Made by a program: the position numbers and the translations under genes. Shown one piece after another: positions 3,804-64,000 of a DNA stretch of 64,000 nucleotides (the stretch's first letter is position 1; each line of letters begins with the position of its first letter). The stretch spans positions 1-64,000 of the forward strand of contig JAIOAU010000015.1 of the NCBI GenBank assembly GCA_019873655.1, written 5' to 3'. This DNA comes from Chloroflexota bacterium. GTDB taxonomy: Bacteria > Chloroflexota > Anaerolineae > Anaerolineales > Villigracilaceae. The notes beneath the pieces are model-generated. The model ran no database searches. It was not told the DNA's origin and saw nothing but the letters and a program-made list of their open reading frames with translations.

Positions 3804-3824
3804 GTCGCTGGTCGCCAGTCGTTA
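3804..3824. repeat. Degenerate heptamer array at the purL-purQ junction
   Basis: GTCGCTG, GTCGCCA and GTCGTTA lie in tandem on the plus strand; the last unit contains the purL stop codon (TAA on the minus strand, 3824-3822). The array therefore forms almost the whole purL-purQ spacer. Confidence 0.5.
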
Positions 3825-6800
3825 GTGGAGAGGGGTGTTCCAGGCCTCGACGAGGGCCGGGACGGGAAGGCTGAAGAGGGCGCGGCCGCCCGCCGAGACG
3901 GTCAGGGCAGGCGTCCCGGCGACGCGCCCCAGTTTGCGGAGGGGCAGGCCATCGAATCCGGCCTCGAAGGCCGCCGCCTGCTCGGGAGCGACTTCGACCA
4001 GCAGACAGCCAGTCGTCTCGCCGAAGAGGAGGCGCAGGGGGCCGCCGGGAGGCAGGTCGAGGTCGAGGCCGAGGCATCCGCCGATGCACATCTCCGCCGC
4101 GGCGACGGCCAGCCCGCCCTCCGAAAGGTCATGCGCGGCGCGGACCCGTCCGGCGGCGACGGCGCGGTGCAGGGCCGCGTAGACGCGCGGCGTGACGGCC
4201 GGGAGAGAGGGGACGGGTTCGCCAGCCGCCGACGGCAGAGCGCGGACGGCGGGCGCAATCAGGTTGAAATGACTGCCGCCGAAGGTCGGGGCAAAGTCGC
4301 CGACCAGGTAGAGCAAGCCGCCCGCGGCTTTCAAATCCATCGTGACCGCCTGGGTCACATCGGCCAGGACGCCGATGGATGAGATGAGCAGGGTCGGCGG
4401 GATGGCGTGACGCTGGCCGTCCGCGCCGAGGTACTCGTTGTTGAGCGAATCCTTGCCCGAAATGAACGGCGCGCCGAAGAGGAGCGCCGCGTCGTGACAG
4501 CCGCGCGCCGCCTCGACCAGCGCGCCGAGCGTCTCCGGGCGCAGGGGGTCGCCCCAGCAGAAGTTGTCGAGCAGGGCGATGCGCGCCGGGTCCGCGCCGA
4601 CGGCGACCAGGTTGCGCACCGCCTCGTCCACCACGGCCAGGGCCATGCGGTAGGGGTCGCGCTTGCCGTACTCCGGGTTGATGCCGTTGGCGAGGGCAAT
4701 CCCCGCCCGTCCGCGCGCGCCGGGCGGACGCAGGACGCAGGCGTCGGAGGGTGCGTCCATCTGCGCGCCGGTCAGCGGCTTGACCGCCGTCCCGCCCTGC
4801 ACCTCGTGGTCGTAGATGCGGATGACCTCCGCCTTGGAGGCGATGTTCGGGTGGGCGAGGAGGGCGAGGAAGTAATCGGTGATTAGTGAATAGTTATCAG
4901 TATCGTCCGCCGACGACTGGCGACTGACGACTGGCGGCTGACGACTGACGACCGCCTTCAACCGCCGCTGGGGAATGCCCTTGTGGAGGAACTCGTTGTC
5001 GAGGTCGAGGACGACGCGTCCCTGATAGCGGACGACGAGGCGGCCGGAGCCGGTAAATTCGCCGATGTCCATCAGGTCCACGTTGTGGAGGGCGCACAGT
5101 TCGCGCAGGGCGGGCAGGTGTTCGGGCGGGACGGCCAGCGCCATGCGTTCCTGGGCCTCGGAGAGCCAGATTTCCCAGGGAGCCAGGCCGGGATATTTCA
5201 GGCGCACGCGCGTCAGTTCGACCTCGCAGCCAATCTCGGAGGCCATCTCACCGACCGCCGAGGAGAGACCGCCCGCGCCGCAGTCGGTGATGGCGGTGTA
5301 GAGGCCGCGGTCGCGCGCCGGCAGAAGCACGTCCACCAGCCCCTTCTCGACGATGGGATTGCCAATCTGCACCGAGGCGCCGGAGACCTCGCCCGTCTGG
5401 GCGTCCATCGTCATCGAGGAGAAGGTCGCGCCGCGCAGACCGTCGCGGCCGGTCCCGCCGCCGAGGACGACGACGCGGTCGCCGGGACGCGGGCCGCGCA
5501 CCCGCCGTCCGCGCGGGGCCATCCCCACCGTCCCGCAGAAGACAAGCGGGTTGGCGGCGTAGCCGGGGTCGAAGAGAATCGCCCCGTTGACGGTCGGGAT
5601 GCCCATCTTGTTGCCGTAGTCCTGCACCCCGGCCACCACGCCCGAAAAGATGCGGCGCGGATGCAGCACCCCGGCGGGGAGTTCATCGAACGAGGCGTCC
5701 TGCCGCCCGAAGCAGAGGACGTCGGTGTTGGCGACCGGCTTGTGCGAGACGCCCAGCACGTCGCGGATGACGCCGCCGACGCCGGTGTTGGCCCCGCCGA
5801 AGGGTTCGATGGCCGAGGGGTGGTTGTGAGTCTCGACCTTGAAGGAGACTTCGTTCTCGCCGTCCAGGTCAATCACGCCGGCGTTGTCCACGAAGGCCGA
5901 AAGCACCCAGGGGGCGGCAATCTTTTCGGTCGCAGCGCGGATATAGGTGTTGAACAGGCCGTTGACGGTGAACGGCGGCCCACCGGCGGCGTCTTCGACT
6001 TCGATGAGGGCTTTGAAGGTCTTGTGGACGCAATGCTCGGACCAGGTCTGGGCGATGGTCTCGAATTCAACGTCGGTCAGGTCGCGGCCTTCGCGCTCGC
6101 AGTAGGCGCGGATGGCCTGCATCTCGGCCAGGTCGAGGGCGGCGCGGCGCTCAGCGGAGAGGGCCAGCAGGGCCTCGTCCGTCAGGCCGCGCAGGCGGAG
6201 GGTTTCGACCTCGCCGCTCGATTCGGCCTCGACCGGGAAGGAGGGTTCGATTTCGCCCAGCGCCCAGCGGTGGATGACGGGATTGACAACGGATTTGACA
6301 ACGGACTCTGTCACGGAATCACGGACGGGAACGGATTTTGTGTCGGACTCACGGATAGAACTCGATTCGGCCTCGACCGGGAAGGAGGGTTCGATTTCGC
6401 CCAGCGCCCAGCGGTGGATGACGGGATTGGCAACGGATTTGACAACGGACTCTGTCACGGAATCACGGACGGGAACGGATTTTGTGTCGGACTCACGGAT
6501 AGAAACGGAGGGGGAAAAGAAGAAAAGATAGCGGAAGCCGGTCGCGGCGCGGCGGACGCCGCTCAGGCCGAGTTGATGGGCGGCGCGGACGACTTCGTCC
6601 GCCACCGGGTCGGTGACGCCGGGACGCAGAGCCACCTCGACCACCAGCGCGTCCGGTGGTGGGTCGGCGGGCGGGGCGGACAGTTCGCGCCACTCGGCGG
6701 CTTGAGTCAGCGGGTCAATTAAAAGCGAGAGGGCCAACTGCTGACATTCCTCCGGCGACAGTTGGCCCTCGATGAAGAACAAATCCTGACACTCGATACG

Positions 6801-6902
6801 CGCCAGGTCGCTGAAACCCAGGGCGCGGGCGTCAGCAAGCAGGCCGACCGAACGCGGGTCGTCGGCGCGGCGGAAGCGAACGATGAAACGATAGACAGGC
6901 AT
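3822..6902 (-). CDS. purL: FGAM synthase, PurS-like domain fused to PurL
   Basis: Makes FGAM from FGAR, ATP and ammonia from PurQ. The 1026 residues split into an N-terminal PurS-like region with two similar halves (about 1-65 and 80-133), a linker, and the two-lobed synthase (NHPSAIEPFGGANTG around 360; a second lobe from about 680). There is no C-terminal glutaminase, so it is intermediate between small PurL plus PurS and the ~1300-residue enterobacterial PurL. Two stretches are not expected: residues ~134-229 are a 48-residue unit occurring twice, and residues ~650-677 are encoded by heptamer repeats. Both stay in frame and catalytic motifs are intact, so the gene is probably functional. 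First gene of the operon. Confidence 0.95.
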   Translation of the reverse strand: MPVYRFIVRFRRADDPRSVGLLADARALGFSDLARIECQDLFFIEGQLSPEECQQLALSLLIDPLTQAAEWRELSAPPADPPPDALVVEVALRPGVTDPVADEVVRAAHQLGLSGVRRAATGFRYLFFFSPSVSIRESDTKSVPVRDSVTESVVKSVANPVIHRWALGEIEPSFPVEAESSSIRESDTKSVPVRDSVTESVVKSVVNPVIHRWALGEIEPSFPVEAESSGEVETLRLRGLTDEALLALSAERRAALDLAEMQAIRAYCEREGRDLTDVEFETIAQTWSEHCVHKTFKALIEVEDAAGGPPFTVNGLFNTYIRAATEKIAAPWVLSAFVDNAGVIDLDGENEVSFKVETHNHPSAIEPFGGANTGVGGVIRDVLGVSHKPVANTDVLCFGRQDASFDELPAGVLHPRRIFSGVVAGVQDYGNKMGIPTVNGAILFDPGYAANPLVFCGTVGMAPRGRRVRGPRPGDRVVVLGGGTGRDGLRGATFSSMTMDAQTGEVSGASVQIGNPIVEKGLVDVLLPARDRGLYTAITDCGAGGLSSAVGEMASEIGCEVELTRVRLKYPGLAPWEIWLSEAQERMALAVPPEHLPALRELCALHNVDLMDIGEFTGSGRLVVRYQGRVVLDLDNEFLHKGIPQRRLKAVVSRQPPVVSRQSSADDTDNYSLITDYFLALLAHPNIASKAEVIRIYDHEVQGGTAVKPLTGAQMDAPSDACVLRPPGARGRAGIALANGINPEYGKRDPYRMALAVVDEAVRNLVAVGADPARIALLDNFCWGDPLRPETLGALVEAARGCHDAALLFGAPFISGKDSLNNEYLGADGQRHAIPPTLLISSIGVLADVTQAVTMDLKAAGGLLYLVGDFAPTFGGSHFNLIAPAVRALPSAAGEPVPSLPAVTPRVYAALHRAVAAGRVRAAHDLSEGGLAVAAAEMCIGGCLGLDLDLPPGGPLRLLFGETTGCLLVEVAPEQAAAFEAGFDGLPLRKLGRVAGTPALTVSAGGRALFSLPVPALVEAWNTPLH
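4872..4956. repeat. Heptamer array inside purL
   Basis: Two blocks of 7-base units lie in the purL reading frame: GTAATCG, GTGATTA, GTGAATA, GTTATCA, GTATCGT (4872-4906), and GACTGGC, GACTGAC, GACTGGC, GGCTGAC, GACTGAC, GACCGCC (4915-4956). They encode roughly residues 650-677, including two copies of VVSRQ. The conserved sequence resumes at LALLAHPNIASK. Confidence 0.85.
6217..6504. repeat. 144-bp tandem duplication inside purL
   Basis: Two adjacent 144-base copies (6217-6360 and 6361-6504) differ at one base (6286 A, 6430 G). Each encodes 48 residues: a SIRESDTKSV / VRDSVTESVVKS part made of short TCCGT-containing microrepeats, then the normal-looking linker NPVIHRWALGEIEPSFP. The near identity implies a recent duplication or gene conversion. 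Confidence 0.95.
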
Positions 6903-6961: not shown

Positions 6962-7007
6962 TAAATTTGGGAAGGAAGGTGATGATTGTCAGGCGGAGAA
7001 ATGACAG

Positions 7008-7029
7008 GGGGCGGAGTTGCCTCCGCCCC
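7008..7029 (-). terminator. GC-rich hairpin after the small secreted protein
   Basis: A perfect 9-bp stem (GGGGCGGAG / CTCCGCCCC) with a 4-base loop starts 12 bases after the stop at 7041. There is little T-run after it. Confidence 0.5.
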
Positions 7030-7040
7030 GCTGCAAGGGA

Positions 7041-7511
7041 TTAGGGATTGGTGGTCTGCCAGCGCCAGCCGCGCTGCATGCCGGAGCCGAGGGGGACGCC
7101 CGTCCCGCCGCAGGATCCCCGGCCGGCGCCGCCCATCATACCGGCGCGGCCCCGTCCCTGACCGCGGGCCAGCATCCAGTCGGCCTGCTGCTGGGTGATG
7201 ACGCCGTCCGCCAGCGCCGCCTGGACAGCCGCCTGGCGCACTTCCGTCATCAGGGCCGGGAACTGCTCGGCCGAGACGCCGTTGGCGAGGGCGATCTGGT
7301 AGAGAGTCTGTCCGGCCACGAGGGCGGATTCGACTTGCTCGACGCTCAGATTCAAGCGGGAGGCAAACGCGGCCACCATGTAGGGATGCAGCACGCCGCC
7401 GCAAGCGCCTTTTGCCGAGGGAGGCGTCTCCCCTTGGGCGGCAACCTGTCCAATGCCGACGCCGGTCAACAGAACAGCCAGTAAAGCAACTGCAATGAGG
7501 GTCTTCTTCAT
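7041..7511 (-). CDS. Small secreted protein, Gly/Arg/Met-rich tail
   Basis: Not recognised as a named family. The 156 residues start with a clear signal peptide (MKKTLIAVALLAVLLTG, cleavage near AAQG). The middle (about 35-115) is helical with LNLSVEQVESALVAG and DGVITQQQADWML, a pattern seen in short Chloroflexota exported proteins that repeat a 'counting by enzyme-like helix' unit. The tail is rich in Gly, Arg and Met with one Cys pair candidate. The ATG at 7511 is chosen over an upstream GTG at 7520 because AAGGAG (7525-7520) sits 8 bases before it. Confidence 0.8.
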   Translation of the reverse strand: MKKTLIAVALLAVLLTGVGIGQVAAQGETPPSAKGACGGVLHPYMVAAFASRLNLSVEQVESALVAGQTLYQIALANGVSAEQFPALMTEVRQAAVQAALADGVITQQQADWMLARGQGRGRAGMMGGAGRGSCGGTGVPLGSGMQRGWRWQTTNP

Positions 7512-7610
7512 TTTGCACACTCCTTATAAGTGAATTTCTTGCTCATAGGATACCGCATGAATGTAAAGGTTCGATAAAGACTGTCTCAAATTCTGGCAAA
7601 TAAGGGGGAT

Positions 7611-7638
7611 TTGCAGAAATCGAAAAGATGAGTATAGT
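7611..7638 (+). promoter_or_regulatory. Promoter of the 7685 gene
   Basis: TTGCAG (7611-7616), 16-base spacer, TATAGT (7633-7638). A start near 7645 would give a leader of about 40 bases with AGGAAAAGAGG before the ATG at 7685. The rest of 7512-7684 shows nothing further. Confidence 0.55.
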
Positions 7639-7684
7639 GGTTTTGCGGCAACCGTTTTTCTAAACGCCCAGGAAAAGAGGACTT

Positions 7685-8764
7685 ATGAACCAAAACAATC
7701 AAAAACTCGTCGTCCGCGATTACCCCGTCGCGCTCTGGTTGTTCGGCGTCCTGACCGGCGGGTATGCTCTCTATACCTACTTCAGAATGCCGAGCCAGAC
7801 GGCTATCATCGCGGCAGGGGCGGGAATCAGCGCCCTGATCTTCCTGCTGACCACGGTCGTGACGGTCACCGCCGATCGGCAGACCGGAATGCTCACCATC
7901 CGAAACACCGGCATATTGATCCACAGAAGGCGCGAAATTCCCATCGCCGAGATCGCCGCCATCGAGTTGGAGCATTCCTATTCGTCCGGTTCGTACCGCC
8001 ACTCTGCGCCCACCTACCGGATTGTGGTCTTCACCAAAGGCAACGAAAAGATTCCCCTGCGCGCCTCCTACACCAGCGGACGGCTCGCCCACGAAGCGCG
8101 TCTCAAGCGTCTGCGCCAGTTCCTGAACGTCGGAGGCACGACATCTCTGACAGACATGTTCCAAGGGACCTTGACGCAAGCGGCCGAGCAATTCCGCCAG
8201 GAGCAGGAGTCCATCACCGGCAGGCAGGACGAGGAGCGCGTCACCGACGGCGTGCGCTGGACGCTGCAGACGCGCGCCGCCGGCGGCGCCCCGCTCTCGG
8301 TCTGGCATTCGCCCGATTTCCACTGGCCCGATAACTTTCTGTATCTGGTCCAGAAAGCGCCCGGGCAACAGTCGACCGGCGGCGTCATGGCTTTGATGAG
8401 CAAGACGCTGCTCAAGACTTCGTTGAACCTCTATGGTTTCCGCAACGAGATGACGCTCGGCATGGAGAGAGCCTCGCAACTTGCCCCGCTCGACCCGCAA
8501 CTGGAGCCGCACTTCATGGCTTTCACCAGCGACCCGGCCGGGGCGCGCCAGATTCTGAATCCGTGGGTTCAGATGCCGCTGGCCGCCTGGGTCCAGAAGT
8601 ATCCCGTCCGACCCGGCGAGGGGGGAAGCATCCTTCAACTGGTGGTGCTGTTCTGCCCGCAGGGCGTCTACCTGGCCATGCTGGGACTGCTGAACCCGGA
8701 ATTTCTGGAGGAACTGACCCGCCTCGGCGTGGAACTGGTCAAGGCCCAGGGAGGGACAAGATAA
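7685..8764 (+). CDS. Membrane protein with two N-terminal TM segments
   Basis: Unrecognised 359-residue protein. Two hydrophobic segments (about residues 15-33 and 40-58) are followed by a cytosolic domain. Residues 60-130 alternate beta-like strands (TADRQTGMLTIRNTG, EIPIAEIAAIELEH, YRIVVFTKGNEKIPL), resembling a PH-like or bacterial membrane-flanked fold. The C-terminal 180 residues contain no known motif. It stands alone between a divergent small secreted protein and convergent uvrB, so context gives no function. Confidence 0.85.
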   Translation: MNQNNQKLVVRDYPVALWLFGVLTGGYALYTYFRMPSQTAIIAAGAGISALIFLLTTVVTVTADRQTGMLTIRNTGILIHRRREIPIAEIAAIELEHSYSSGSYRHSAPTYRIVVFTKGNEKIPLRASYTSGRLAHEARLKRLRQFLNVGGTTSLTDMFQGTLTQAAEQFRQEQESITGRQDEERVTDGVRWTLQTRAAGGAPLSVWHSPDFHWPDNFLYLVQKAPGQQSTGGVMALMSKTLLKTSLNLYGFRNEMTLGMERASQLAPLDPQLEPHFMAFTSDPAGARQILNPWVQMPLAAWVQKYPVRPGEGGSILQLVVLFCPQGVYLAMLGLLNPEFLEELTRLGVELVKAQGGTR

Positions 8765-59257: not shown

Positions 59258-61627
59258 ATGAAAACTTTCTTGCACGGAAACTGGCGCTACACCACCGAGG
59301 ACAGCCCCGACTTCGCCCACCCCGGCCACGACGACTCGGCCTGGGCGCAGATGAGTTTGCCGGCCAACTGGTTCCTGGCCGGCCTCGACCATCACGGCGT
59401 GGTCTGGTTCCGCCGCGCCTTCGATTACCAGCCCGGGCGCGGCCAGTTCGTCCGCCTGCGCTTCGACGGCGTGGACTACTTCGCCGAGGTCTACCTGAAC
59501 GGCGTCCTGCTCGGCCGCCACAGCGGGTACTTTGACCCCTTTTCGTTCGATGTGACCGGCGTGCTGGTCCCCGGCCGCAATCTGCTGGCTGTGCGGGTCG
59601 ACTCGCCCTATGAAAAGCCCGGCCTGGACGGCTGGCATCTGCGCAAGAAACTCATCAAGGGCATCCTCAACCACCACGACTGTCGCCCCGGCGGCGGCTG
59701 GGAGCTGGCCGGACAATCCTACAACACCGGCGGCATCTGGAACCGCGTCTTCCTCGAAGAACACGGCGCGGTCACCATCGAGGCCCTCCTGCTGCGCGCC
59801 GACCTCGAGTCCGATCCGCCCGTCCTGCACGCCGAAGCGCGCGTCGAGAACCGCGGCCCGGCGCATCCCGCCCGCCTGACGCTGCGCTGCGCCCCCGACA
59901 ACTTCCCCGGCCAGGCCTACCAGGCCGAGTTCGACCTCGACCTGCCCGCCGGCCAGAGCGTCCAGCGCGTCTCTCTCCCCGTCCCGGCGGCGGCGCGCTG
60001 GCAGCCCTGGGACCGCGGCTTCCCCCACCTCTACCAGGTCTCGGCCAGCCTGGACGGGGCCGAGGCGCGTTCCCTGTTCGGCTTCCGCTCCGTCCGCATG
60101 GAGCCCGGCTACCGCTTCGTCCTCAACGGCGAACCGTATTTCCTGCGCGGCTCGAACTACATCGCCTCCCAGTGGCTGGCCGAGACGCTCTTCGCCGAGG
60201 CCAACAGCGACCGTCATCCCTTCGGCGGCGGGCCGGGGCTGGAAACCTTCAGCCGCGACGTCCGCCTGGCCAAAGCCTGCAATTTGAACATCCTGCGCGT
60301 CCACGCCCACGTTCTGCCGCCCGAATTCCACGAGGCCTGCGACCGCGCCGGCCTGCTCGTCTGGCAGGATTTCGCCCTCCAGTGGGGCTACTCGGACGAC
60401 CCCGCCTTCCAGGAGGAAGCCGTCCGCCAGATGCGCGCCATGGTGACGATGCTCTACAACCACCCCTCCATCGTCCTCTGGTGCTGTCACAACGAGAGTC
60501 CCTGGGACGCGCCCTGGATGGCCGGCGCTGCAGGCGGCCTCTACGACCCCGCCCACAACCGCGACCTGGACGCCCGCCTGGAGGCCGAAACCCGCGCCCT
60601 CGACCCGACCCGCATCGTCCACCGCAACTCCGGCACCGGCGACGGCCACGCCTATCCCGGCTGGTACTTCAGCGAGTACACTCTCTTCCGCGACCTGCCC
60701 GGCGCGCCGCTGGTCACCGAATACGGCGCCCAGGCCCTGCCCGCCAAAGAGAGCCTCCTGCGCGCCCTCGCCCGCCTCGGCCCCGACGGCGGTTACGCCG
60801 ACCTGATGCGCTTCAAAGCCTTCCTGCGCGCCCGCAGCGCCTACAAGCCCATGCCGAAGCCGCTGCTGAAATTCATGAGCGCCCTCATCAACAACGCTGA
60901 GCGCCTGCCGCTGCTCAAACCGCTGGTCGGCAAGATCAACGCCTGGGGAATGAAAGCCGAAACCTCCCCCTACAAGCGCCTCCCGCCCGAAGACGAGATT
61001 CCGCCCGAATTGCGCTCTGCCTATCAGGTCTGGCAAGCCTGGCGCTTCCACGACTTCCAGCCGCCCGAAACCTTCGAGGAAGGCCGCCTCGACCCCGGCG
61101 ATTCGCTCGACGAGTTCATCGTCAGCAGCCAGGACTATCAGGCCCGCCTGCTCCAGTTCGCCACCGAAACCTACCGCCGCGCCAAAGGCCGGGTCAGCGG
61201 CGTCATCCAGTTCGACTTCACCGACCCCTGGCCGGCCATCACCTGGTCGGTGCTGGATTACTGGCGGCAGCCCAAGGCCGGTTACGCCGCCCTCCAGCGC
61301 GCCATGCAGCCCGTCCTGCCCAGCCTCGACCTGCCCGACTCGATCCGCCCCGGCAAAGGGTTCAGCGCCCCGCTCGTCGTGGTCAACGACCTCAATCAAG
61401 CCTTCCCCTCCGTCGTCTGCGCCTGGCGGTTGGAGAGCGGCGGCCGCACCCTCGCCCAAGACGCCTGGAAGGCCGATCTGCCCGCCAACGCCGTCAAAAA
61501 AGTGCACACCTTCCTCTTCCCGGCCCTGCCGCCCGGCGAATACCGCCTGACCGTCACGGTCGCCGCCGCCGACGGCAAACCGCTGGGCGAGAACCTCTAC
61601 ACCCTCAGACTCTCGGAGGAACCATGA
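59258..61627 (+). CDS. GH2 beta-mannosidase-like glycosidase
   Basis: 789 residues of glycoside hydrolase family 2. N-terminal jelly-roll (LPANWFLAGLDHHGVVWFRR, FDGVDYFAEVYLNGVLLGRH), an Ig-like domain, then a TIM barrel with acid/base Glu in LWCCHNESPWD near residue 412 and nucleophile Glu in LVTEYGAQALP near 490. A C-terminal Ig-like segment ends the protein. No signal peptide, so it probably acts in the cytoplasm on imported beta-glycosides. Overlaps the GH4 gene by ATGA. Confidence 0.92.
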   Translation: MKTFLHGNWRYTTEDSPDFAHPGHDDSAWAQMSLPANWFLAGLDHHGVVWFRRAFDYQPGRGQFVRLRFDGVDYFAEVYLNGVLLGRHSGYFDPFSFDVTGVLVPGRNLLAVRVDSPYEKPGLDGWHLRKKLIKGILNHHDCRPGGGWELAGQSYNTGGIWNRVFLEEHGAVTIEALLLRADLESDPPVLHAEARVENRGPAHPARLTLRCAPDNFPGQAYQAEFDLDLPAGQSVQRVSLPVPAAARWQPWDRGFPHLYQVSASLDGAEARSLFGFRSVRMEPGYRFVLNGEPYFLRGSNYIASQWLAETLFAEANSDRHPFGGGPGLETFSRDVRLAKACNLNILRVHAHVLPPEFHEACDRAGLLVWQDFALQWGYSDDPAFQEEAVRQMRAMVTMLYNHPSIVLWCCHNESPWDAPWMAGAAGGLYDPAHNRDLDARLEAETRALDPTRIVHRNSGTGDGHAYPGWYFSEYTLFRDLPGAPLVTEYGAQALPAKESLLRALARLGPDGGYADLMRFKAFLRARSAYKPMPKPLLKFMSALINNAERLPLLKPLVGKINAWGMKAETSPYKRLPPEDEIPPELRSAYQVWQAWRFHDFQPPETFEEGRLDPGDSLDEFIVSSQDYQARLLQFATETYRRAKGRVSGVIQFDFTDPWPAITWSVLDYWRQPKAGYAALQRAMQPVLPSLDLPDSIRPGKGFSAPLVVVNDLNQAFPSVVCAWRLESGGRTLAQDAWKADLPANAVKKVHTFLFPALPPGEYRLTVTVAAADGKPLGENLYTLRLSEEP

Positions 61628-63021
61628 CCCTACCAACCAAAATCGTCGTCATTGGCGCAGGCAGCGCCTCGTTTGGAGAGAACACCCTGGCGGCCCTGCT
61701 CCGTTCCCGCAAACTGCGCGGCTCGACCCTCGCCCTTGTCGACCGCAATCCCGAAACGCTCGACGTCGTCCGCCGCCTGGCCGAGCGCCTCAACCGCGAA
61801 TGGGACGCCGGCCTGACTCTCACCAGCCACACCGACCACCGCGACGCCCTGGACGATGCGACCCAGTTCGTCGTCTCGGCCATCGAGGTCGGGGCGCGCG
61901 AGGGCCTCTGGCGGCGCGACTTCGAAATCCCGCTCCAGTTCGGCGTCCGCCAGCCCTACGCCGAGAACGGCGGCCCGGGCGGATTCGCCCACGCCCTGCG
62001 CAACATCGGCCCCGTCCTGAACATCGTCCGGGACATGGAGCAGGTCTGTCCCCAGGCCTGGTTCATCAACTACACCAACCCGATGATTCGCATCTGCGAC
62101 CTGGTCAACCGTCACAGCCGCATCCGGGCCGTCGGCCTCTGCCACCAGATCTTCATCGGCTACGTCATGGTCGGCATCGCCCTTGCCAAAGACCTGGGCA
62201 TCGAGGTCCCGGAAGGCATCGTCGGCATGCACGCCGACATCACCCAGATTCCGCTCCATGAGCGCGTCAAGGAACAAATCGTCCCGCGCCTCGACATCCG
62301 CGCCGCCGGCCTGAACCACTTCTCCTGGATTCTCTCCATCTGCGACCGGCAGACCGGCGAGGACCTCTATCCGCTCTTCCGCCGCCGCTTCTTCGAACTC
62401 GACCCGGCCTTCGAGCCGCTCACCCGGCGCGTCTTCGAGGCCTTCGGCCTTTTCCCCGTCCCCGGCGACACACACCTATGCGAATACCTCCCCTGGCTGA
62501 CCGATCCGGTCACCAAGCCCTGGGAAAAATACAATATCCGACTCTACGATTGGGACATGATGGCCGCCGTGCGCGAATTCCAGCACGAACGCCTGCAGCG
62601 CATGGCCGACGGCGAACTGACCCTCGAGAGCCTGGAGGAAACCGACTCCGAGGGCGCGTTGGAGATGATCGAAAACGTCGCCGGCGCGGGGACGCATTAC
62701 CACCTGGCCGCCAACCTGCCCAACGCGGGCCAGATCGCCAACCTCCCGCTCGGCGCGCCGGTCGAAACCCCCGTCGTCGTGGACGGAGCCGGAATCCACC
62801 CCGTCCACGTGGGCAGCCTGCCCGAGCCGGTCGCCGAACTCCTGCGCCGCGAGATCACCGTCGCCCAACTGTGCGTGGACGCCGCCGTGGAAGGGAGCCG
62901 CGAAAAGGCGCTGCAATGCCTGCTCCTCGACCCGGTGATCACCGACATCGAGACGGCCAAATCGGTCCTGGATGCCTATTTGACCGAATACAAAGCGTAC
63001 TTGCCGCAATTCTGGAAATGA
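61624..63021 (+). CDS. GH4 family NAD-dependent glycosidase
   Basis: 465 residues. NAD-binding IVVIGAGSASFGENTL at the N terminus, then the GH4 signatures NYTNPM, GLCHQIFIG (metal-binding Cys/His) and GLNHFSWIL. GH4 enzymes cleave alpha- or beta-glycosides through an NAD/Mn redox mechanism. Galacturonidase, glucosidase or galactosidase cannot be told apart by eye, though the CHQ form is nearer to the galacturonidase-like group. Coupled to GH2. Confidence 0.93.
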   Translation: MTLPTKIVVIGAGSASFGENTLAALLRSRKLRGSTLALVDRNPETLDVVRRLAERLNREWDAGLTLTSHTDHRDALDDATQFVVSAIEVGAREGLWRRDFEIPLQFGVRQPYAENGGPGGFAHALRNIGPVLNIVRDMEQVCPQAWFINYTNPMIRICDLVNRHSRIRAVGLCHQIFIGYVMVGIALAKDLGIEVPEGIVGMHADITQIPLHERVKEQIVPRLDIRAAGLNHFSWILSICDRQTGEDLYPLFRRRFFELDPAFEPLTRRVFEAFGLFPVPGDTHLCEYLPWLTDPVTKPWEKYNIRLYDWDMMAAVREFQHERLQRMADGELTLESLEETDSEGALEMIENVAGAGTHYHLAANLPNAGQIANLPLGAPVETPVVVDGAGIHPVHVGSLPEPVAELLRREITVAQLCVDAAVEGSREKALQCLLLDPVITDIETAKSVLDAYLTEYKAYLPQFWK

Positions 63022-63028
63022 ATCGGGA

Positions 63029-63070
63029 GACGAGTGACGAGTGACGAGTGAGGAGTGACGAGTGACAGGC
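63029..63070. repeat. Heptamer array left of the four-helix-bundle gene
   Basis: GACGAGT (3 copies), GAGGAGT, GACGAGT, GACAGGC in tandem, which read as repeats of GAGTGAC. The unit is the reverse complement of that in the array on the other side of the gene. Confidence 0.9.
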
Positions 63071-63109
63071 ATGGCGTGTAATGCATTGGAAATTAGGAGG
63101 GAAACAGAC

Positions 63110-63478
63110 ATGTCACAAGACCGCTTGGAGTCGTTCGAGACCTACAAAATCGCGCGACAATTGTTCGATGATTTCTGGAAAGACTCTGCAATTGCCGGTC
63201 AAGACTACCGCGGCAGAGAACTGGTCAAACAGCAAATCCGAAGTCTGGATTCGATCTGCGCGAACATCGAAGAAGGGTATGGTCGCGGCTTTGGGAAAGA
63301 ACTGCCGCAACACCTCAAAATCGCTCGCGGCGAGGCGCGGGAAAGCAAAGGCCGCTTCGACCGCATGAAACATGTCCTGCCCGCCGACCTGATCGCCCAA
63401 AGGGTCGCCGCCCTCGACCGCATTATCGGCGCCCTGACCAACGCCATCATCAGCATCGAAAGAAAAAAGAATTCCTAA
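63110..63478 (+). CDS. Four-helix-bundle protein (S23/IVS type)
   Basis: 122 residues from MSQDRLESFETYKIARQLF; ATG follows AGGAGG by 10 bases. Helix pattern with QQIRSLDSICANIEEGYGR is the signature of the 23S rRNA intervening-sequence / TIGR02436 four-helix-bundle family. Members occur inside rRNA insertion sequences and scattered in genomes, function unknown. It interrupts the sugar operon and is flanked by inverted heptamer arrays. Confidence 0.92.
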   Translation: MSQDRLESFETYKIARQLFDDFWKDSAIAGQDYRGRELVKQQIRSLDSICANIEEGYGRGFGKELPQHLKIARGEARESKGRFDRMKHVLPADLIAQRVAALDRIIGALTNAIISIERKKNS

Positions 63479-63485
63479 TTCACCC

Positions 63486-63562
63486 GCCACCCGTCACCCG
63501 TCACTCGCCACCCGTCACTCGCCACCCGTCACTCGCCACCCGTCACTCGCCACCCGTCACCC
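63486..63562. repeat. Heptamer array right of the four-helix-bundle gene
   Basis: Eleven tandem units alternating GCCACCC and GTCACTC or GTCACCC. GTCACTC is the reverse complement of GAGTGAC in the left array. Confidence 0.92.
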
Positions 63563-63577
63563 ATCACAGGAGAACCA

Positions 63578-64000
63578 ATGACAAACTACTACCTCGGCAT
63601 CGACGTAGGAGGAACCAAGACCCACGCTCTGCTCGCCGACGAAAACGGCCAGGCGGTCGGCTTTGCCACGGGCGGACCCGGCAACTGGGAGGCGGTCGGC
63701 TACGACGGCCTGACCCGCGTCCTGAACGAGGTCACGCGCGCCGCGGCGGCCATGGCCGGCCTCGAAATCGAGCAGATTGCCGGCGCGGGCATGGGCCTGG
63801 CTGGCTTCGACTGGCCCTCGCAGTACGAAGCCCACATGCAAGCCATTGCTCCCCTCGGCCTGACCGGTCCGGTGCGAATCGTCAACGACGCCACCCTCGG
63901 CATCGTCGCCGGCGCGGAAGAGGGCTGGGGCGTTTCGGTCTGCTCGGGGACCGGCTGTAACTGCCGCGGCTGGAACCGCGACCACAGCCGCGAGGGCCGC
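63578..64000 (+). CDS. BadF/BadG-type kinase, partial
   Basis: Runs off the window end after 141 codons. MTNYYLGIDVGGTKTHALLAD (split across the limit) is the phosphate-1 motif of the ASKHA fold; GAGMGLAGFDWP, VNDATLGIVAG and SGTGCNCRG continue it, as in BadF/BcrAD ATPases and N-acetylglucosamine kinases. Most likely a sugar kinase for products of the GH2/GH4 pair. CAGGAG before the ATG at 63578 lies at the end of the heptamer array. Confidence 0.9.
   Translation, partial: MTNYYLGIDVGGTKTHALLADENGQAVGFATGGPGNWEAVGYDGLTRVLNEVTRAAAAMAGLEIEQIAGAGMGLAGFDWPSQYEAHMQAIAPLGLTGPVRIVNDATLGIVAGAEEGWGVSVCSGTGCNCRGWNRDHSREGR

Follow-up and report, generated by a model that had tools for sequence, protein, structure and literature searches.

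In the window, the stretch of 64,000 nucleotides that was analysed as a whole, a gene for an S23/IVP protein is flanked by two arrays of tandem heptamers that are each other's reverse complement, and the whole is lodged between the genes for a GH4 glycosidase and a kinase of the BadF/BcrAD family (Table 1). The inverted frame had been described in a first-pass annotation and was recovered alike by TRF, by a period-7 scan and by comparison of reverse complements; of the extent given there (63029-63562) the left end holds, while the right end lies 5 bp short of the array, which reaches 63567. The GH4 gene upstream and the kinase gene downstream, also named there, were both matched in a profile search. 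The upstream (U) array starts 7 nt past the GH4 stop codon and contains, according to TRF, 5.4 copies of the unit GACGAGT; the downstream (D) array ends 10 nt ahead of the next start codon and was recovered as a 14-mer (CACCCGTCACTCGC) that consists of two heptamer variants (12.6 heptamers). An in-frame GTG is present at 63062, upstream of ATG 63110, and the latter, preceded by AGGAGGG, is the likely start codon of the S23 gene.

Table 1. Positions of the S23 gene, its arrays and neighbours, and of two gene-less arrays in the window
Feature	Position	Strand	Basis
Gene-less period-7 array, in frame within the purL ORF (3822-6902, minus strand)	4914..4952	+	scan
Gene-less period-7 array directly past a stop codon	8766..8791	+	scan
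GH4 glycosidase, host operon, upstream neighbour of S23	61624..63021	+	profile search
Upstream (U) heptamer array, unit GTGACGA/GACGAGT	63029..63066	+	TRF and period-7 scan
Shine-Dalgarno-like AGGAGGG, 8 nt ahead of ATG 63110	63095..63101	+	sequence reading
S23/IVP four-helix-bundle protein, 122 aa	63110..63478	+	profiles, structure model
Downstream (D) array, heptamers CACCCGT/CACTCGC, reverse complement of the U repeat	63481..63567	+	TRF and period-7 scan
BadF/BcrAD-family ATPase/kinase, host operon, downstream; runs past the window end	63578..64000	+	profile search

The period-7 scan recovered four arrays in the 64-kb window, whereas 20 Markov shuffles gave 0.0 on average. Related arrays had been listed in the annotation at 105, 3804, 4872 and 8765; arrays near the last two places pass the threshold of the scan, the first two stay below it. 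The array within purL is translated as an insert in PurL (stretch 4872-4952). By eye, the sequence near 4875 resembles the repeat of L161, another S23 locus of the window's genome, and the same ORF carries a 144-bp tandem duplication at 6217-6504 (2 copies, 99%). The S23 gene occupies the GH4-kinase junction, not a 23S rRNA helix, and Rfam gave no match up to E 1 in 60000-64000.

The S23 protein of the window passes both PF05635 (44.3 bits, cut-off 33.8) and TIGR02436 (48.8 bits, cut-off 24; match to positions 3-78 of 109). Its AF2 model is helical (pLDDT 91.8) and resembles Xcc0516 and, more weakly, Avd: with Foldseek the best PDB match was 2gsc Xcc0516 (query TM 0.79-0.82, probability 1.00, E only 0.003-0.005), and Avd was matched with a query TM of 0.66 (4dwl_E) and 0.64-0.70 (8ub7/8ub8 chains) at weak E-values of 0.5-0.9. 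A sequence search of the PDB gave no match at 0.001. The net charge of the S23 domain is near zero (mean 0.4), which does not point to a strongly basic protein that binds nucleic acids. Four S23 proteins were compared with known defence proteins in PADLOC, and none matched. The S23 protein of the window was sought on plasmids and in viral contigs, that of L087 on plasmids and that of L101 in phages, in each case with no match; the S23 of L237 matched two unannotated phage records. According to a study on Coxiella (PMC4990558), S23/IVP proteins have no known function and are present in 23S rRNA intervening sequences (IVS), and the Xanthomonas relative that the model resembles assembles into a pentameric ring.

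Inverted arrays around S23 genes

Nine genes matching TIGR02436 are present in the window's genome, and a first look at eight of these showed that L004 and L007 also lie inside inverted arrays, each with a heptamer of its own, and that L002 has an array on one side. The wider set was built from 137 matches to the S23 profile, which correspond to 135 distinct genes (L124 and L139 are short domain fragments); the flanks of 127 or 128 loci were long enough for the array tests. The duplicate loci L001-L004 and L006-L032 were left out, L091 gave no match to the S23 profile, and 20 further loci were used only in the operon-junction comparison, the array-pair count and the solo-array test. The sample is non-random, with 42 loci from one genome-contig scan and the rest from listed profile matches and hand-chosen stretches, mostly of one family. 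The control ORFs were open frames of at least 100 aa, some of which are surely not genes.

Period-7 arrays (score of at least 10, within 300 bp) were found: i) upstream of 47; ii) downstream of 59; and iii) on both sides of 39 of the 127 S23 genes, versus 12, 22 and 0, respectively, of 657 controls. Octamer arrays also occur at S23 genes, and other unit lengths between 3 and 13 were found at most once per side. The annotation had suggested asking whether inverted arrays flank such genes more often than random genes. A more sensitive test, which required that the best inverted match of the 250 bp upstream with the 250 bp downstream score at least 12, was passed by 105 of 128 S23 loci and by 15 of 656 control ORFs. 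After the downstream sides had been shuffled among the S23 loci only 5 of 128 passed, and among the true combinations 14 of 128 scored below 11. Direct matches are commoner at S23 genes as well (25/128 versus 28/656). Where both arrays were detected, the period (7 or 8 bp) was the same on both sides at 61 of 62 loci; 54 of these 62 pairs are inverted, 6 direct and 2 ambiguous, and the six direct ones still reach at least 11 in the inverted test. The summed U/D similarity of own pairs was 823, as compared to a mean of 544 and a maximum of 603 in 10,000 permutations.

Inverted array pairs were also inspected for what they enclose. The 1.65 Mb of fetched loci contain 51 inverted pairs of at most 1 kb, 34 of which enclose an S23 gene, 12 a gap of less than 150 bp and 5 other sequence; the corresponding numbers for the 27 direct pairs are 9, 4 and 14. 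In 800 kb without S23 genes (400 kb of the complete genome G010, evenly spaced, 320 kb of a second genome and 80 kb of the window's genome, the G006 and G000 parts being hand-placed away from known S23 places) we found 30 arrays, one inverted pair with a gap of 3 bp and no pair that encloses a gene. Equal occurrence of arrays beside any gene, which the annotation had named as refuting its proposal, is thus not what the control ORFs and these 800 kb show. The inverted bracket is specific to S23 genes. A chance origin is ruled out by the Markov shuffles, the control ORFs and these 800 kb.

By record titles, units of an S23 gene with arrays are present in at least seven phyla: Chloroflexota, Verrucomicrobiota, Planctomycetota, Cyanobacteriota, Bacteroidota, Spirochaetota and Pseudomonadota. 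Short rRNA motifs revealed no 23S rRNA insertion among the fetched loci. Plasmids provided an independent check (26, 13 and 25 matching records listed, 18 places read), with cyanobacteria, Bernardetia, Treponema saccharophilum, Azospirillum and Ca. Chlorohelix as hosts. The inverted test was passed at 15 of the 18 places, the exceptions being Pseudanabaena, Calothrix and one of two Bernardetia loci, and period-7 arrays were detected on both sides at 12; at L241 (Nostoc sp. UHCC 0870) the inverted match that passes is not a heptamer array.

On plasmids of Planktothrix, Ca. Chlorohelix, Dolichospermum and Gloeocapsa, the S23 genes of L249, L244, L237, L245 and L247 are located in operons that resemble DISARM/BREX (with DrmD and PglX, by annotation, in that of Planktothrix). 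A helicase or DUF1156 gene lies on one side and, on the other, a DNA methyltransferase, a Swt1-HEPN gene or, in Dolichospermum, a hypothetical and a methyltransferase gene. On a plasmid of Anabaena cylindrica PCC 7122, S23 (L243, 2489-2836) and its arrays are flanked by cas2 and cas1, which are encoded on the other strand.

Repeat and S23 clade

Loci with similar S23 proteins tend to carry the same repeat, also where the surrounding sequence is unrelated. Among 3358 locus pairs without flank homology, the fraction that shares an array (at least 12 of 14 bases, same strand) was 0.02 below 30% S23 identity and 0.04, 0.12 and 0.06 in the three bins that follow. It rose to 0.51 at 60-70% (75 pairs) and to 0.72 above 70% (29 pairs); the repeat is common to 57% of the pairs at 60% identity or more and to 2% of those below 40%. 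The Mantel correlation between repeat and S23 identity was 0.246 and was reached by 0 of 2000 permutations, with the pairs in this and the clade tests not being independent. Base composition does not account for the link, as a GC-stratified comparison showed: 58% of the pairs with at least 60% identity still share the repeat when their GC differs by 5% or more (n=67), versus 2% of the pairs below 40% identity with GC within 2% (n=573). S23 genes of one genome with less than 40% identity never share it (0/37). The 4-fold sites are saturated in all identity bins (0.29-0.30), yet array similarity in the two highest bins is 0.80 and 0.85, over a background of 0.61; the arrays are therefore kept far longer than neutral sequence. 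In places the link is loose, the mean similarity within clusters ranging from 8.6 to 12.6 of 14.

The clade of the window's S23 includes members from Chloroflexota, Planctomycetota, Verrucomicrobiota and one deltaproteobacterial MAG (record titles). All 14 members viewed by eye have GTGAC- or GTGGC-type repeats on both sides, including some that the scan had missed; in L064 and L070 the upstream side contains a hairpin of both orientations. The S23 of L163, a locus of the window's genome with the repeat ATTTACG, is 60-66% identical to S23 proteins of Planktothrix, Ca. Chlorohelix and Gloeocapsa, whose arrays contain GATTTAC or GATTTTA. Since units related by both protein and repeat occur in several phyla without flank homology, gene and arrays travel or persist together. 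As judged from the sequences, the repeat is tied to the S23 clade and the pair persists across phyla without shared flanks; hitch-hiking and array homogenisation could explain part of the link.

Operon junctions and solo arrays

The units fit closely into the space between cistrons. Measured from the preceding stop codon, the upstream array starts after a median of 1 nt (quartiles -5 and 7; n=60), and from the end of the downstream array to the start codon that follows the median is 5 nt (quartiles -12 and 17; n=69). Both neighbours point the same way as the S23 gene in 103 of 124 cases, versus 641 of 1076 for other genes (directions and gaps taken from a simple gene caller of our own).

Orthologous junctions differ in what they hold. 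At a carbamoyltransferase-carbamate kinase junction (neighbours as read), three genomes have S23 with arrays and two have gene-less inverted arrays (by eye); at the adjoining junction one genome has S23, a second has gene-less inverted arrays, and a third is empty (by eye). In another operon two genomes carry S23 at different junctions, and of the counterpart junctions in the respective other genome one is empty and one has an array without S23. The annotation had conceded that its proposal would fall if orthologous gaps always held both arrays and gene, which is not the case, as junctions may be empty or hold arrays without S23. It had also suggested looking for a remnant array in the GH4-kinase gap of relatives: in two genomes of the same genus another gene, by its motif probably a ChbG/YdjC-type deacetylase, directly follows GH4, with the kinase homologue beyond it. 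The site in the window is therefore not a clean insertion. In G019 (L168) a solo CAATTAC array follows the GH4 gene.

Gene-less arrays that carry the repeat of a resident S23 are found at other places of the genome. For the 83 arrays at a distance of more than 1.5 kb from every S23, similarity was 11.22 of 14 to S23 arrays of the same genome versus 10.54 to equal numbers from other genomes (p=0.002), which is a modest effect, and 25 of them match the array of a resident S23 at 13/14 or better. An example is the solo array between atpA and atpG of the window's genome (L180, G000:C5, 6592-6671), which has the repeat of the window's S23, GTGACGA. In the 30 genomes examined of 36 with an atpG match, the atpA-atpG gap is at most 52 bp in 25 and 72-198 bp in 5, the window's genome being one of the latter; it measures 44 and 46 bp, without GTGACGA array, in two genomes of the same genus. 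In G026, which belongs to the order but to a different family, this gap holds an inverted pair of the GTGACGA type without a gene, and G017 has octamer arrays of both orientations.

A proposed cassette class and its alternatives

We would give even chances to the reading that the unit in the window belongs to a widespread class of S23 cassettes, whose protein recognises the repeat of its clade and promotes the spread or upkeep of the arrays. A cassette would comprise one S23 gene inside inverted 7- or 8-bp arrays of its own clade's repeat, set into operon junctions along the direction of transcription, typically from stop codon to start codon. The S23 protein would recognise its own repeat, probably as a hairpin or stem formed by the inverted arrays, and may help arrays to spread or to be maintained at operon junctions, in the way in which RAYTs act on REPs. 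Copying or transfer of the DNA itself may be left to an enzyme of the host, and the host operon would tolerate the insert because it stands between cistrons and is able to fold out as a stem. The arrangement suggests an undescribed kind of small genetic element.

REP/RAYT systems have a gene between inverted copies of its own short repeat, with related repeats scattered over the genome; the RAYT proteins belong to the HUH (Y1) transposases, and REPs are palindromic. S23 units likewise have their own repeat inverted around the gene and dispersed in the genome (the latter a modest effect), but the enclosed protein is an S23 four-helix bundle, not a Y1 (HUH) transposase, and the repeats are tandem 7- or 8-mers. 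If it is true that S23 spreads the arrays, this would be a repeat-propagating system without a recognisable nuclease.

The annotation had gone further and proposed a small mobile unit that leaves heptamer scars, which our data back in part: gene and arrays occur together in several phyla without flank homology, and solo arrays with the repeat of a resident S23 exist, although these may, instead of scars, be insertions or remnants. Its other part found no backing, as there is no transposase fold and no target-site duplication was identified at sites without S23, where the divergence between the species prevents the ends from being placed. No genome was seen to carry near-identical copies at several sites, as would be the case for a classical IS or MITE. 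The closest relative in the sample lies in the same genome for only 1 of 91 S23 genes, and none of the 76 with a sampled paralog is 90% or more identical to it (maximum 76%, with not every S23 per genome sampled); within-genome copies being this divergent, there is no sign of recent copying. Reverse-transcriptase dependence was rejected, since no RVT_1 match was found in the S23-rich genomes G006 and G026 (at least 22 and at least 16 S23 genes, respectively); the window's genome has one, on another contig. The Avd protein of diversity-generating retroelements has a similar fold (weak E-values), but these elements need reverse transcriptase and the S23 loci show no sign of such dependence.

The main rival to the cassette reading, in our estimation rather unlikely, is an IVS-like RNA cassette, in which RNase III cuts the array stem in the operon transcript and frees the S23 mRNA and the flanking cistrons, with selection acting on RNA pairing. 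According to PMC4990558, the Coxiella IVS (428 nt) has an S23 ORF between ends that form a 28-bp stem and is excised by RNase III, and tandem heptamers (GACAGAT), whose copy number varies between strains, lie just 5' of the S23p ORF. 23S rRNA IVS (e.g. Coxiella, Leptospira) and the unit in the window both have an S23 ORF between complementary stem-forming ends and are of similar size, S23 genes are placed co-directionally in operons, and in the predicted RNA fold of the window the arrays pair and close the S23 ORF (z -2.56). The units described here differ from the IVS, however, in that they sit at junctions of protein-gene operons (at least 22 S23 genes in one genome), have arrays on both sides with a repeat for each S23 clade, and have gene-less counterparts elsewhere in the genome. 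A stem tuned for G.U pairing was expected to show an excess of G.U-compatible changes, which is absent: in 120 elements the differences between U and D include 134 compatible versus 191 incompatible transitions. Moreover, gene-less and single-sided arrays exist, and pairing alone leaves the clade-specific repeat unexplained.

An improbable alternative is that the arrays are part of a non-mobile operon device, acting as translational couplers, spacers or transcript stabilisers with S23 as regulator, and that their apparent spread reflects ordinary horizontal transfer of operon pieces. A study on cyanobacteria (PMC2670836) describes hairpin-forming 7-bp repeats in Nostoc and suggests that such heptamer hairpins stabilise transcripts or couple translation, and the typical span of the arrays from stop to start codon agrees with this. 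A device of this kind is, however, dispensable for the operon, as orthologous junctions can be empty, and pairs of S23 and repeat are common to loci without flank homology. Very improbable is a mere by-product, with hairpin-forming tandem repeats that grow by slippage at operon junctions and S23 as a captured passenger, for which one may cite period-7/8 arrays without S23 and varying array lengths, but gene-enclosing inverted pairs are nearly confined to S23 and the link of repeat and S23 clade outlasts the saturation of synonymous sites.

To return to the cassette reading, a bolder version seems possible to us though doubtful: S23 rings would form a new class of repeat-specific propagators, with a 7-8-bp repeat of its own for each clade to recognise, that seed, extend and mirror arrays between the genes of operons, also in trans (atpA-atpG), in the way of RAYT/REP without a transposase, and the 23S rRNA IVS and many heptamer arrays (cyanobacterial STRRs, Xanthomonas GGGAATC) would be their specialised or orphaned products. 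The accessible parts of PMC2670836, PMC4692102 and PMC4679880 leave the role of heptamer arrays in cyanobacteria, Xanthomonas and Beggiatoaceae unsettled; the Xanthomonas GGGAATC arrays are described as mostly intergenic, with 70-75 inverted pairs (PMC4692102). STRR and GGGAATC arrays are tandem heptamers like those of the window, and those parts of the accounts make no link with S23, whereas the cyanobacterial plasmid S23 genes analysed here sit between heptamer arrays. Among the matches listed in a search of the open-access literature, which is no proof of novelty, none links S23 genes in general to inverted repeat arrays, and only the Coxiella IVS study (PMC4990558), as far as its available portion goes, puts heptamers beside an S23 ORF. 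The data join proteins that have no known function with arrays that have no settled role, with one repeat per protein clade, and this makes both S23 function and array role testable by binding of own versus foreign repeat.

At two loci (L153, about 7000-8750, and L137) octamer arrays separate further small ORFs beside S23, one of which appears nucleotidyltransferase-like by eye, as if the arrays punctuated a larger cassette.
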